Below, piece by piece: positions 48,656 to 52,861 of a stretch of DNA of 64,000 nt. The translations under genes were made by a program, and so were the position numbers. The stretch spans positions 4,268,501-4,332,500 of the forward strand of contig NZ_CP112874.1 in assembly GCF_029910235.1 (NCBI RefSeq), written 5' to 3'. The stretch is from Pseudanabaena galeata CCNP1313 (GTDB lineage: Bacteria > Cyanobacteriota > Cyanobacteriia > Pseudanabaenales > Pseudanabaenaceae). Positions within the stretch are counted from its first letter, which is position 1. Each line of letters begins with the position of its first letter. The notes under the pieces are model-generated. The model worked only from the letters and a program-made list of their open reading frames with translations, did no database searches and was not told the DNA's origin.

Positions 48656-51600
48656 ATGATTGAGCTAAATGTGCGGTTTACGAGTAGCGATCGCTTTGTG
48701 ATCAAGTTCGACGATCGCGAGACGGATGCTTTGGAATTTGTAGCGCCTGTGAATGATAGCGATCGCGCTGAGATTCGCTGGTATTTGGAGAGCTATGCGG
48801 CGCATTACATGATGGATGTGGACGATCGCAGGGCAGAGAGGATTGAGGCGCAATTGCCTGAGTGGGGCAAGGCTTTGTTTGAGGCGATTTTTGGCGATCG
48901 GGCGGCGGCGAGGATATTTAATGATTTTCAGGACGATCAAGAACGGGGCAAGATTTTAACCATTGGTGCAAGTCATCCGCTTATTTTGTCTTTGCCTTGG
49001 GAATTGTTGCGCGATCCGACGGGGACTTATTTGCTGCATGACAATCCGCGTATTGCGATCAGGCGGAAGTTTGCGGGTGTGGGTGGTGGACGCAGGGCGG
49101 CACAGGTAAAACCTAAAGATCAAGTACGGGTGTTGATGGTGGTCAGTCGTCCCAGTGATGCGGGGTTTCTCGATCCGAGGGCGGAGGGGTTGGCATTGTT
49201 GGAAGCGATCGGTGATGTGCGCGAACACTCCGTGGCGCTGCGCGAGCGCGTAGCCGTAGAATTTTTGCGTCCTGCGACTTTGGATAAGTTGATCGATCGC
49301 TTAGAAGATGATCGCTTGCCTGCGGTGGATATTGTGCATTTTGATGGACATGGGGCGTTTGATCCTGATGGTAGGTTGCATGAACGGGCAAAGATGAGTG
49401 ATCCTGTTGCCGCGACTAAGGCGGATGCAACGGCGGCGGCGAATACGGGCTATTTGTTGTTTGAGGATGGTGATGGCAAATCGGCGCTGATTACAGCGGA
49501 AACTTTGGGGGATATGCTGAATCGGCAAAGGGTGAGTGCAATTATTTTGTCGGCTTGTCAGTCGGCGGCGGTCGGTGGTGATGATGCTTTGGGTAGTGTA
49601 GCAGCGCGGTTGACTCAGGCGGGGATGCCATCGGTATTGGCGATGCAATATTCGGTGTTGGCGGTGACGGCGCGGCAGTTGTTTGGTAAGTTTTATGGCT
49701 TTTTGCTGCGGGGTCAGGGTGTGGGTGAGGCGTTGGAAAATGCGCGGCGGGATCTGTATCTGAATAAGGAAAGGGGCGATCGCCCAAGGGGTAAGGAACG
49801 GGTGGTTTTGAAGGTACAGGATTGGTTCTTACCTGCTTTGTATCAGGTGGGGAATGATGGGGCGTTATTCAACCCTCACCCCCAGCCCCTCTCCCAAGGG
49901 GCGAGGGGAGAAATTAGCCCTCACCCCCAGCCCCTCTCCCAAGGGGCGAGGGGAGAAAGAGGGGAAAGGGGAGATGGAGAAGAGAATCCAGATCTCTTGT
50001 CCCCCTCTCCCAGAGGTAGAGGGGCTAGGGGTGAGGGCAATCTACGTGAATTGCAGGAGGCGGGTTTTTGGGGTAGGTCGCGAGAATTGTGGGCGATCGA
50101 GAGGGCGTTTGTGCGGGGGACGCGGCGAATTACGATTTCGGGGTTTGGGGGGATGGGGAAAACCTATCTGGCTGAGGAGGCGGGGCGGTGGCTATTGCGG
50201 ACGGGGATGTTTGCGCGGGTGTGTTTTATCAGTTTTGCGGATTTTCAGGGTGTCGATCCTGTGAGTTATGCGGTGAGTGTGTTGGCGACGGTGTTGGATA
50301 CCAATTTGATCGATGGGGCGGCGGCGACTAGTGCGCTAAGGGAACAGGCTGTATTGGTGATTTTGGATAATTTGGAGACTTTGAGATCCCCCCTAACCCC
50401 CCTTGTAAAGGGGGGCAAAGAAGAAGATTCCGATCAAGCCCCCCTTTCTAAGGGGGGTAGGGGGGATCAAAGCCTACAAAGTTTAGAAGGAACTCAAGCC
50501 CCCCTTAGTAAGGGGGGTAGGGGGGATCAAGCCCTGCTCGACATCGCAAAAGAATGGTCGGAGGCGGGAAATAGTCGGGTGTTGCTGACGACGAGGGTGG
50601 CGGATTTGCAGCATCCTGATTATCCTAATCAGGGGAGTTTGAAGCATATTCCTTTGCCGTTGCGGGGTTTGTCGGAGGGTGATGCGCTGGACTATTTCCA
50701 GAGTTTGATTAAGTTGCCACCAGAGCCGCAGTTTGGGTTGCCGCCCCGTGAGGGTTTGTTGGAGTTGTTTGGGTTGCTGGACTGTCATCCTTTGTCGTTG
50801 GGGTTGTTGGCGGGGCAATTGAAGCAAAGAAGGGCGCTAGAGGTGCATCGGGAGTTAGCGCAGTTAGTGGCGGATACTCCTAATAATGCTTTGCTGGCTT
50901 CGCTGAATCTGTCGGTGAGTCGGCTCGATCCTCAAGCACAGGAATGGATTAAGCGGTTGGGAGTGTTTCAGGGTGGAGCATTGGAAGTTAATTTACTAGA
51001 GATTACGGAAATTGCGGAAACGGAATGGCATGAACTCAGAACACAGCTAGAGGCAACGGGACTGATACAGTCAGAATCTTTGAGTCATTTGGGTGTGGGT
51101 ATGCCTTTTCTCAAGTTTCATCCGACCCTTGCCCCTGCGATATGGTCACGACTGACCGAACTCGAACAACAGCAACTCCTCATCCGCCATCGACAACGCT
51201 ATTACCAACTGTCGAGTTATTTGTATGGTGAGGATAGTAAAAATCCCTTTGCAGTGAGAGCCATAGCCCAACGGGAACTGCCGAATCTGCTCTATGCCGT
51301 GCGGGGCAGCATCGCCGCAGGTGAAGACTTTGCGGTGAATTTTGTGGATAACGTTAACCGCTTCTTGTTTGTCTTCGGGCTGAATCAAGATCGAGAAAAT
51401 TTGACAGAAATGGCGCAACATATCGGCGGTGAGGTTGGCTCCCAAACTTGGTTTATGACGCGCAGTAATACAGGCGAACAGTTATGGAATGCAGGACGCT
51501 ATGCCGAAGCCAAGGCGGTGTTTCAGGAGATTTTGGCAGGCTTGGGCGCGACTCCTAGTTTTAACAAATGTACAATACTTGTCAATCTTGGACGTTGCTA

Positions 51601-52663
51601 TAAGGCAGTAGGAAATCTACAATTTGCAAAAGAAGCTTACCTTGATGGATTAACAGTTGCAGCAAAACTTGAGCAATCTAAAGGCGTACAGCAAAAGATC
51701 GGAGTATTACAGGCAGACTTAGCAGATGTGTTGAGTGATATGGGGGACTACGATCGCGCCCGTGAGTCCTACGAGGAATCGTTAGCGATTAAGAAAGAAA
51801 TTGGAGGCTCTTTCCGAGAGGAAGCCGTTGTCCAAGTGCAACTAGGAACCTTAGCACTGTTGCAGAACAACCTCACCGAAGTCGCCCAACGCTATCAAGA
51901 AGCACTGAAAATCTTTCAGCAACTCAACGAACCCGCATCAGAAGCAACTGTATGGCATCAGTTGGGCATGACCTTTGAAAAATCGCGTCAATGGGAAGCC
52001 GCAGAGCAAGCCTATCGCCAGTCCGCCCAGATTAGTGAAGCGCAGGGTGATTTAACAAGGGCAGTAATGACTTGGAATCAGTTGGCGATCGTGAGCGAAG
52101 GTGCGGGGAAACTGACGGAGGCGGAGGCATGGTGGCAGAAAGTGATCGCGGCAGATCGAAAACAGAGCGATCACACTCTGCTATGTGGACATCTCAATAA
52201 CCTTGCCAATCTCCTCCAACAAGATTACGATCGTCTCAACGAAGCCCAACAATTAGCCGAAGAGTCCCTAGCCATTAAGCAAACCCTCGATCCTGCGGCG
52301 GCTAATATTTGGAATACTTACGGGATTTTGGCAGAGATTAGCGATAAACAAGGCGATCCAGCCAAAGCGAAGGAATATCGCCGCCTTTCTCGCACCGCCC
52401 GCGCCAACTTTGCAGGCACTGAGTACGAGCTACGCAAACACGCCCAGCTTATCGAGGGTGTAGTGAGAGCAGTTGACGATGCCGAGGTCAGACAGCAATT
52501 AGAGCCAATTTTAGAAAACAGGATCTCGAATGGTTGGCAAAATCTCATCGCAGCAATTCAGCAAATTCTCAACGGAGAACGCGATGAAGATATTCTCTGC
52601 GAAAGATTGGATATAAGAGAGTCTCAAATTGTCCTTGCCATCCTTGGACAAGTAAAAAGGTAA
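48656..52663 (+). CDS. CHAT protease - NTPase - TPR protein
   Basis: 1335 aa from ATG 48656, with GAGG about 8 nt upstream. Residues 1-395 are a CHAT caspase-like domain with the catalytic dyad His232 (VHFDGHG) and Cys301 (LSACQS). A repeat-encoded linker (about 405-463) follows. An NB-ARC/NACHT-like NTPase has P-loop ISGFGGMGKTYLAEE (about 497-510) and Walker B AVLVILDNLE (about 566). About 50 residues of repeat-encoded sequence lie right after Walker B. The C-terminal 450 residues are TPR repeats (NAGRYAEAKAVFQEIL, MGDYDRARESYEESLAIKKE and more). This is the architecture of bacterial NLR-like immune receptors. No trans-membrane segment is seen. Confidence 0.93.
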   Translation: MIELNVRFTSSDRFVIKFDDRETDALEFVAPVNDSDRAEIRWYLESYAAHYMMDVDDRRAERIEAQLPEWGKALFEAIFGDRAAARIFNDFQDDQERGKILTIGASHPLILSLPWELLRDPTGTYLLHDNPRIAIRRKFAGVGGGRRAAQVKPKDQVRVLMVVSRPSDAGFLDPRAEGLALLEAIGDVREHSVALRERVAVEFLRPATLDKLIDRLEDDRLPAVDIVHFDGHGAFDPDGRLHERAKMSDPVAATKADATAAANTGYLLFEDGDGKSALITAETLGDMLNRQRVSAIILSACQSAAVGGDDALGSVAARLTQAGMPSVLAMQYSVLAVTARQLFGKFYGFLLRGQGVGEALENARRDLYLNKERGDRPRGKERVVLKVQDWFLPALYQVGNDGALFNPHPQPLSQGARGEISPHPQPLSQGARGERGERGDGEENPDLLSPSPRGRGARGEGNLRELQEAGFWGRSRELWAIERAFVRGTRRITISGFGGMGKTYLAEEAGRWLLRTGMFARVCFISFADFQGVDPVSYAVSVLATVLDTNLIDGAAATSALREQAVLVILDNLETLRSPLTPLVKGGKEEDSDQAPLSKGGRGDQSLQSLEGTQAPLSKGGRGDQALLDIAKEWSEAGNSRVLLTTRVADLQHPDYPNQGSLKHIPLPLRGLSEGDALDYFQSLIKLPPEPQFGLPPREGLLELFGLLDCHPLSLGLLAGQLKQRRALEVHRELAQLVADTPNNALLASLNLSVSRLDPQAQEWIKRLGVFQGGALEVNLLEITEIAETEWHELRTQLEATGLIQSESLSHLGVGMPFLKFHPTLAPAIWSRLTELEQQQLLIRHRQRYYQLSSYLYGEDSKNPFAVRAIAQRELPNLLYAVRGSIAAGEDFAVNFVDNVNRFLFVFGLNQDRENLTEMAQHIGGEVGSQTWFMTRSNTGEQLWNAGRYAEAKAVFQEILAGLGATPSFNKCTILVNLGRCYKAVGNLQFAKEAYLDGLTVAAKLEQSKGVQQKIGVLQADLADVLSDMGDYDRARESYEESLAIKKEIGGSFREEAVVQVQLGTLALLQNNLTEVAQRYQEALKIFQQLNEPASEATVWHQLGMTFEKSRQWEAAEQAYRQSAQISEAQGDLTRAVMTWNQLAIVSEGAGKLTEAEAWWQKVIAADRKQSDHTLLCGHLNNLANLLQQDYDRLNEAQQLAEESLAIKQTLDPAAANIWNTYGILAEISDKQGDPAKAKEYRRLSRTARANFAGTEYELRKHAQLIEGVVRAVDDAEVRQQLEPILENRISNGWQNLIAAIQQILNGERDEDILCERLDIRESQIVLAILGQVKR
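49869..50038 (+). repeat. In-frame palindromic repeats in the CHAT gene linker
   Basis: Two direct copies of a CCTCACCCCCAGCCCCTCTC..GGGGCGAGGGG unit, about 52 bp apart, and an inverted third copy (CCCTCTCCCAGAGG..GGGTGAGGG). They are translated as PHPQPLSQGARGE twice, then LLSPSPRGRGARGEG. The same kind of sequence is normally intergenic in cyanobacteria. Here it separates CHAT and NTPase without breaking the frame. Confidence 0.85.
50383..50535 (+). repeat. In-frame GGGGG-rich repeats after Walker B of the NTPase
   Basis: One CCCCCCTAACCCCCCTTGTAA-type unit and two near-identical CAAGCCCCCCTT..AAGGGGGGTAGGGGGG units, translated SPLTPLVKGG and twice QAPLSKGGRGDQ. The same palindrome type (CCCCTTAAAAAGGGGG) is intergenic at 12900-13140. 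The insertion lies inside the ATPase core, between Walker B and the next strand. Confidence 0.85.
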
Positions 52664-52861
52664 AAGTAAAAAGTAAAAAGGAAATGCCCAGATCTCCGAC
52701 TTTTTCTTTGCTATCAAAGGGGATTTGTGCATTCACAAAAAAAGTCGGAGATCTAAATCTCTGCTACGGTATCAAGTAAAAGGGAAAAAGGAAAAAGGAA
52801 AAATTGGAGGTAAAGATCAAGTAAAAAGGTAAAAGGTAAAAGGAAAAACTGGAGATGAATT
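52664..52861. repeat. Purine-rich short tandem repeats and inverted repeat
   Basis: Runs of AAGTAAAAAGG / GGAAAAAGGAAAA-type heptamers (52664-52682 and 52775-52850) flank a perfect inverted repeat AGATCTCCGACTTTTT (52690-52705) with its complement at 52739-52754. Similar heptamer tracts are known between genes in filamentous cyanobacteria. No gene is seen. Confidence 0.6.

Follow-up and report, generated by a model that had tools for sequence, protein, structure and literature searches.

We analyzed a 64,000-nucleotide stretch of the genome of Pseudanabaena galeata CCNP1313 (contig NZ_CP112874.1, positions 4,268,501 to 4,332,500; hereafter, the window). We focus on a gene in the window whose product combines a CHAT protease domain, a probable NB-ARC-like STAND NTPase (STAND is short for signal transduction ATPases with numerous domains), and tetratricopeptide repeats (TPRs). 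Two blocks of palindromic repeats lie within its coding sequence: block A, which belongs to a family of repeats that we call family A, and block B, which belongs to a second family, family B (Table 1). Both blocks are in frame with the open reading frame (ORF) of the gene, and the frame stays open throughout the repeats. We found that the blocks are insertions relative to empty orthologues. An initial annotation of this DNA had described an intact CHAT dyad, an intact P-loop, and many TPRs, and alignment and Pfam both agree, with Walker B being intact as well. It had also described two in-frame blocks of repeats, one in the linker and one just after Walker B, and these were confirmed by the direct and inverted repeats within them and by the existence of genome-wide families.

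Five aligned sequences show no variation at His232 and Cys301 of the CHAT dyad, in the P-loop GFGGMGKT, or at D571 of Walker B, and the start of the protein (MIELNVRF) is common to the relatives, as judged by comparing ORFs. (In our comparisons, G000 is the genome under study; relatives within the genus Pseudanabaena include G001, G007, G019, G022, and G023; and G524 is a more distant cyanobacterium from another family.) AAA_16 and NACHT match residues 471-591 of the receptor, under the curated Pfam cut-offs; the NB-ARC model of Pfam is also under its curated cut-off for the NTPases of G023 and G524 and is above it for the more distant L160. A profile of nine NTPase sequences, this gene included, matches the NB-ARC domain of the plant receptor Roq1 (7jlv, E = 1.8e-9). 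We take the SRVLLTTR stretch that follows block B to be the RNBS-B/sensor-1 position. The gene resembles Roq1 in this profile match and in its layout of effector, switch, and repeats, but it has a CHAT protease as the effector and TPRs as the repeats, and its role in defence is putative. The only match from PADLOC was a generic TPR model. We use "NLR-like receptor" (NLR is short for nucleotide-binding leucine-rich repeat) as a name for the gene's layout and not for a demonstrated function; the protein is most likely a switch of the NLR kind, with the TPRs as sensor, the NTPase as switch, and the CHAT domain as protease.

Within block A there is an exact 41-nt direct repeat (at 49873 and 49918) and a 45-nt inverted pair that is 80% complementary (49917 and 49994). 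Similarly, block B contains a 42-nt direct repeat that is 90% identical (50434 and 50494) and a 30-nt inverted pair that is 83% complementary (50385 and 50439). The arms in the blocks are thus roughly 30-45 nt. No chance match to either unit arose in 100 shuffles of each. When folded as single strands, the doublets were far more stable than shuffled sequences (z = -4.5 for block A and -6.5 for block B), while the four single arms, folded alone, gave z = -0.1 to -2.1.

Table 1. Features of the receptor gene and of the gene upstream of it. Positions are in the window unless a locus is named.
Feature	Position	Strand	Basis or remark
CHAT - NB-ARC-like STAND NTPase - TPR gene	48656..52663	+	1335 aa; ORF, Pfam, profile match
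CHAT domain, residues 71-373	48866..49774	+	Pfam PF12770, E 5e-29
His232 of CHAT dyad	49349-49351	+	alignment
Cys301 of CHAT dyad	49556-49558	+	alignment
Block A, family-A palindromes, CHAT/NTPase linker	49873..50038	+	two identical left arms 45 nt apart, one inverted right arm
P-loop GFGGMGKT, residues 496-503	50141..50164	+	alignment
Walker B region around D571 (LVILDNLE)	50354..50377	+	alignment
Block B, family-B palindromes, loop after Walker B	50385..50528	+	one left arm, two right arms spaced 60 nt
SRVLLTTR stretch 3' of the block B insert	50573..50596	+	alignment, Roq1 profile comparison
TPR region	51458..52414	+	Pfam, many TPRs
Upstream partner gene, 142 aa, one hydrophobic C-terminal segment	47978..48406	+	orthologue upstream of receptor in five relatives
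Upstream small-protein gene, copies in relatives	L020:7359-7775; L083:5530-5985; L084:4904-5332; L086:4416-4880; L190:1672-2097

Among 194 genomes of the class, a search for homologues of the receptor gave matches in 15, of which five belong to the genus; we set aside one short match (L151). Block B has about three arms in G000 and G019, two in G022 and G007, and none in G023 or G001. Repeats are absent from the Walker B loop in all ten aligned homologues from outside the genus (the G524 orthologue and nine more distant ones). The length of this loop also varies among repeat-free homologues, and lengths differ at the same loop after Walker B in the alignment to Roq1. The contents of the CHAT/NTPase linker vary as well: G000 and G022 have family A; G007, G019, G023, and G001 have what appears, from a short sequence (DPPQPPLEKGE), to be a family-B-type remnant; and G524 has a copy of a third repeat, again identified from a short sequence. 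A pattern search for this third repeat gave 13 exact matches in the G524 genome, one of which is in the receptor linker, and 19 in G000. Homologues without any of these repeats have linkers of varying length too. That the blocks are ordinary conserved protein sequence or an artefact of assembly has, in our view, a negligible probability: we found no point in its favor, and block B is missing from two relatives as well as from the ten homologues outside the genus. Furthermore, the same repeat junctions occur in G022, whose genome is a single contig, which makes an assembly error very unlikely. The initial annotation had named conserved sequence and assembly artefact as the readings that would overturn its description, and neither comparison overturned it.

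The allele in G007 (L021 / L086) is chimeric, with a CHAT half like that of G023 and an NTPase-TPR half like that of G000. This raises the alternative that the repeats serve chiefly as homology for recombination, which would shuffle the two halves and alter the length of the gene; the exact 41-nt duplication and the 90% identical 42-nt duplication within the gene would also fit. But the change-over in G007 is not in a repeat: it lies around the P-loop or past it, at least some 50 residues beyond the linker remnant, so we rejected a breakpoint at the repeat. Overall, we view this alternative as unlikely. The initial annotation had suggested a recombination hotspot that yields length variants; lengths do differ between species, but the one breakpoint in G007 is away from the repeat.

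Another suggestion was that the repeats mark the onset of decay of a dispensable gene. The G001 gene is in two halves on two contigs, and in G022 the gene is broken close to the end that encodes the C-terminus; what breaks it is not the repeats but other DNA, which carries a 422-aa ORF on the opposite strand (L020:2680-3948). The G000 copy shows no sign of decay: its catalytic motifs are intact, and outside of block B, the NTPase has an uncorrected dN (nonsynonymous divergence) of about 0.01-0.04 as against a dS (synonymous divergence) of about 0.09-0.15, across five pairs compared. The same families also lie within genes such as LigA and LeuRS. Decay is thus a highly unlikely explanation.

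To describe the two families across the genome, we used strict patterns. Family A occurs at 59 distinct places in G000 (48 forward and 43 reverse matches) and family B at 54, while the same patterns read backwards had no matches in this genome. Of the 25 genomes of the genus, 24 contain the family-A pattern; it is most abundant in G000, with 91 strand matches, followed by a genome with 51. The family-B pattern was present in 76 of 386 genomes sampled from the phylum, all from one class. By a test of the outer arms, 9 of the 59 family-A places and 7 of the 54 family-B places have inverted pairs of arms, as in REPINs (doublets of repetitive extragenic palindromes, or REPs); most of the remaining places have single arms. 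Both blocks in the receptor fold as such inverted-arm doublets, although most places in the genome are single. Just beyond a gene for a 1255-aa TPR protein, there are four copies, about 204 nt apart, of an inverted pair of family-B arms (G000:C1:2385881-2386525; L069, L129).

Both families have arms that can be read in several frames. The family-A arm of the receptor gene is open in five of the six frames, and its CTAG variant in four; the main family-B arm is open in four and the receptor's right family-B arm in three. Read-through of family A would give peptides such as PSPSGRGAGGEG, among them ones rich in proline, glycine, and serine such as PHPQPLSQGARGE. Of all strict elements, 43 of the 113 strict elements lie within ORFs of at least 120 aa, and the families differ in this respect: 35 of 59 for family A, as against 8 of 54 for family B (Fisher p = 1e-6). 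The initial annotation had considered the repeats to be of the kind that is found between genes, but most of family A is not intergenic.

If we consider only the elements with 40 aa or more between them and either end of the ORF (which drops four family-A elements), then 39 of the 113 are deep within genes (31 of 59 for A and 8 of 54 for B). These lie in 23 open genes, some of whose ORFs extend beyond the stretch that we fetched, and are read in several frames. The hosts include MenE, LigA, LeuRS, and CobB (above the family cut-offs) and a UvrD/PcrA-like helicase, a slr1306-type GTPase, and a PglX-like methylase (below the cut-offs). Further hosts match an RluA-type synthase, nSTAND1 (two proteins), UvrA, PolA, a UvrB_inter/CarD/DEAD protein (the layout of Mfd), a DUF1156/DUF559 protein, a hydantoinase, MnmE, a PriA-type helicase, and Eco57I/MmeI-type methylases (two proteins). 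Two hosts, L104 and L106, had no match in Pfam, and L046 had none in NCBIfam. In PolA, UvrA, CobB, and the PriA-type helicase, the insert is between domains; in some others, it is within catalytic domains. In the UvrD-like protein, it lies between DEAQD and GDPNQA, and in the slr1306-type GTPase, ahead of DTQG. Both nSTAND1 proteins carry family A (residues 490-536 of L092 and 328-370 of L099), with one insert inside the ATPase domain, just before what we take to be Walker B (as with the other motif names at these sites), and the other N-terminal to the ATPase domain. The receptor gene is thus not special as a host for the repeats. An insert within the ATPase core had been thought exceptional; this was not supported, as the loop varies in length without repeats and 22 other genes carry elements.

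LigA gives a second case, besides the receptor gene, in which empty orthologues were demonstrated. In the loop after FFAYTIH, a family-A element is present in G000, G018, and G024, and G009 has a degenerate form of it; in G006, G022, and G014, the element lies a few residues beyond this point. So, family A is found at two places in one loop in 6 of 24 genomes, along with the one degenerate case. Of the remaining 17 genomes, two (G010 and G002) show short LPSP/FPSS sequences, perhaps remnants; G025 has a different, longer insertion; and we recognized no element by eye in the rest. We also examined 25 family-A copies from 23 sister genomes, taking the loci that the search gave (two copies for two of the genomes, one for each of the others). 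ORFs of at least 120 aa contain 19 of these copies, and 17 of the 19 have at least 40 residues to either side; the remaining 6 are outside any ORF of this size. Judging by eye from the flanking peptides, 10 of the 17 deep copies fall in orthologues of six hosts that also carry elements in G000: PolA, LeuRS, UvrA, the Mfd-type protein, CobB, and the UvrD-like helicase.

Together, these results suggest that the blocks are probably selfish, REP-like palindromes that land in genes, survive in loops and linkers, vary in arm number, and have little effect on the protein. Two such families, presumably mobile, would have spread through the genome, with some copies landing in genes. A copy within a gene would survive only if it is in frame and only where the fold tolerates added residues, which in the receptor would be the CHAT/NTPase linker and the variable loop that runs from Walker B to the next helix of the NB-ARC-like NTPase. 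Since the receptor's family-A arm lacks a stop in all but one of the six frames, read-through is possible for many insertions; the resulting peptides would be translated in the cell and may well be disordered. After insertion, arms could be duplicated or lost, perhaps by slippage or recombination, so that arm number comes to differ between species; within the receptor gene, single arms have been duplicated exactly or nearly so, which illustrates this kind of change. For the protein, the repeats are most likely close to neutral.

Several observations weigh against this explanation. First, the copies in PolA, LeuRS, and CobB are found again in other species, so some copies within genes may be kept. 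Second, the types of hosts look non-random: 6 of the 23 are involved in replication or repair and 3 of the 23, including the receptor, are STAND NTPases. The apparent excess of repair genes has a binomial tail of 2e-5 to 2e-3 if 2.5-6% of coding sequence is assumed to be of this type, without control for the length of the hosts. Third, for G000, G022, and G007, dN in block B (0.03-0.07) is, if anything, level with or above that of the core (0.01-0.04), in a test for selection on the inserts that has too few sites to be decisive. Fourth, the only strict family-B match in the entire genome of G022 (L020:5621; looser forms were outside of the search) is the receptor insert, as against 54 strict places in G000, so there the insert has no plentiful strict family beside it. 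Similarly, G019 has three strict family-B matches, none of them in the stretch that was fetched around its receptor gene, which fits less well. Fifth, we found no mobilizer of the repeats: six Y1_Tnp genes were above the cut-off, and none of them has a strict family-A or family-B element within the surrounding 4-5.5 kb. Finally, structure models of residues 1-930 and of the NTPase part (five sequences each) had mean pLDDT (predicted local distance difference test) of just 36.5 and 34.9 and were unusable. A broader hypothesis is that fixed loops in a few classes of proteins (STAND switches, DNA-repair enzymes, and restriction enzymes) are recurrent landing pads for unrelated families of palindromes, that these supply selectable variation in loop length to immune-type receptors and repair enzymes, and that the process is driven by a class of REPs with C[CT]AG feet and its own mobilizer. 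We regard this as doubtful.

A narrower possibility, which the initial annotation had raised, is that the inserts tune the switch, with the number of arms in the linker and in the Walker B loop setting the threshold for the receptor's activation. The blocks are at the joint between effector and switch and beside Walker B, their arm number differs between species, and three different types of repeats occupy the same linker; the two nSTAND1 hosts in G000 and the lone family-B match in G022 could also be cited for it. But alleles without block B retain the same motifs, the linker and the loop vary in length in homologues that lack these repeats, and the same families are found in LigA, LeuRS, PolA, MnmE, and other genes. 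We found no evidence that directly supports tuning, and we consider it quite improbable.

Palindromes that are inserted in frame are already known: intragenic REPs, REP insertions in tnpA_REP genes, and the Rickettsia palindromic elements (RPEs) have all been published. One review describes RPEs as inserted in frame in many unrelated Rickettsia genes and read through into peptides (PMC10969869). Families A and B behave likewise, with one palindromic family lying in frame in many unrelated genes (the 39 deep elements in 23 genes) and being absent from orthologues, as shown for the receptor and LigA. They differ in that the host is a cyanobacterium and in that the arms, of roughly 30-45 nt, are mostly single elsewhere in the genome; the likeness drawn here is one of behavior.

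GTAG/CGTC REPs form hairpins, as singles and dimers, inside genes, many of which are for replication or repair and others for tRNA synthetases and pseudouridine synthases, according to another study (PMC3733652). Families A and B are similar in lying inside genes and in leaning towards repair genes, but none of the 88 hairpins with stems of at least 8 that we scored (34 of 59 for A and 54 of 54 for B; the other 25 family-A elements lack a perfect stem of 8 and were left out) has GT[AG]G at its foot, and no strict element of family A or B is in the stretches fetched around the Y1_Tnp genes. CGTC was not among the commonest hairpin feet listed, and no separate count of it was made. C[CT]A[GA] is at a foot in 76 of the 88 hairpins, which may merely reflect a C-rich flank. 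A third study describes tnpA_REP subclass 2.4, which is abundant in cyanobacteria, with frame-preserving insertions of REPs in a peripheral region of the protein (PMC6006769). Families A and B differ in that they sit in unrelated genes and in that we could tie no transposase to either family.

As far as our searches of the literature showed, what is new here is the families themselves, the host genus, the high share of copies within genes, and the shared landing sites. Among the literature matches listed, there was no paper on families A or B in Pseudanabaena, which is weak evidence as subscription journals were mostly not covered. In G000, over half of the strict family-A copies are in genes, and different elements have filled the same loops more than once. 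Because filled and empty orthologues coexist, LigA or the receptor could be used to distinguish whether inserts are neutral, tolerated, or used.

As for a link to REP-associated tyrosine transposases (RAYTs), we searched four of the six Y1_Tnp loci for inverted repeats, and all four had other ones. One 469-aa protein with a Y1 transposase domain contains several in-frame units of the TRGLSPLLP type, apparently from a different family of repeats (L131:2207-3613). Beside another Y1-transposase gene, there is a long repeat array (L132:621-2109) that reads as PRSPTSST... in one frame and as other repeats in another. This array has short inverted AAGAAGTCGGGGATCT motifs, and a similar inverted pair is found at 52690-52754 in the window.

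Finally, the receptor gene has a putative partner. A gene for a small protein of about 140 aa lies upstream of the receptor in G007, G019, G022, and G023 and is 80-92% identical to the copy in the window; in G524, an orthologue that is 46% identical (E = 3e-42) is also upstream of the receptor. The small protein, which has a hydrophobic tail, may be the receptor's target or effector, and it is a candidate protease substrate or membrane effector. The pairing of a CHAT protease with a small, membrane-type protein suggests that the protease might trigger membrane damage, which we infer from the pairing only. The distance from the small-protein gene to the start codon of the receptor is 15 nt in G022 and G023 and 249 nt in G000. 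In G007, the slot between the two genes contains a MafB19-type deaminase and an Imm1 immunity gene (L086:5095-5992), and in G524, it contains two other small ORFs, so this slot is variable among the relatives.

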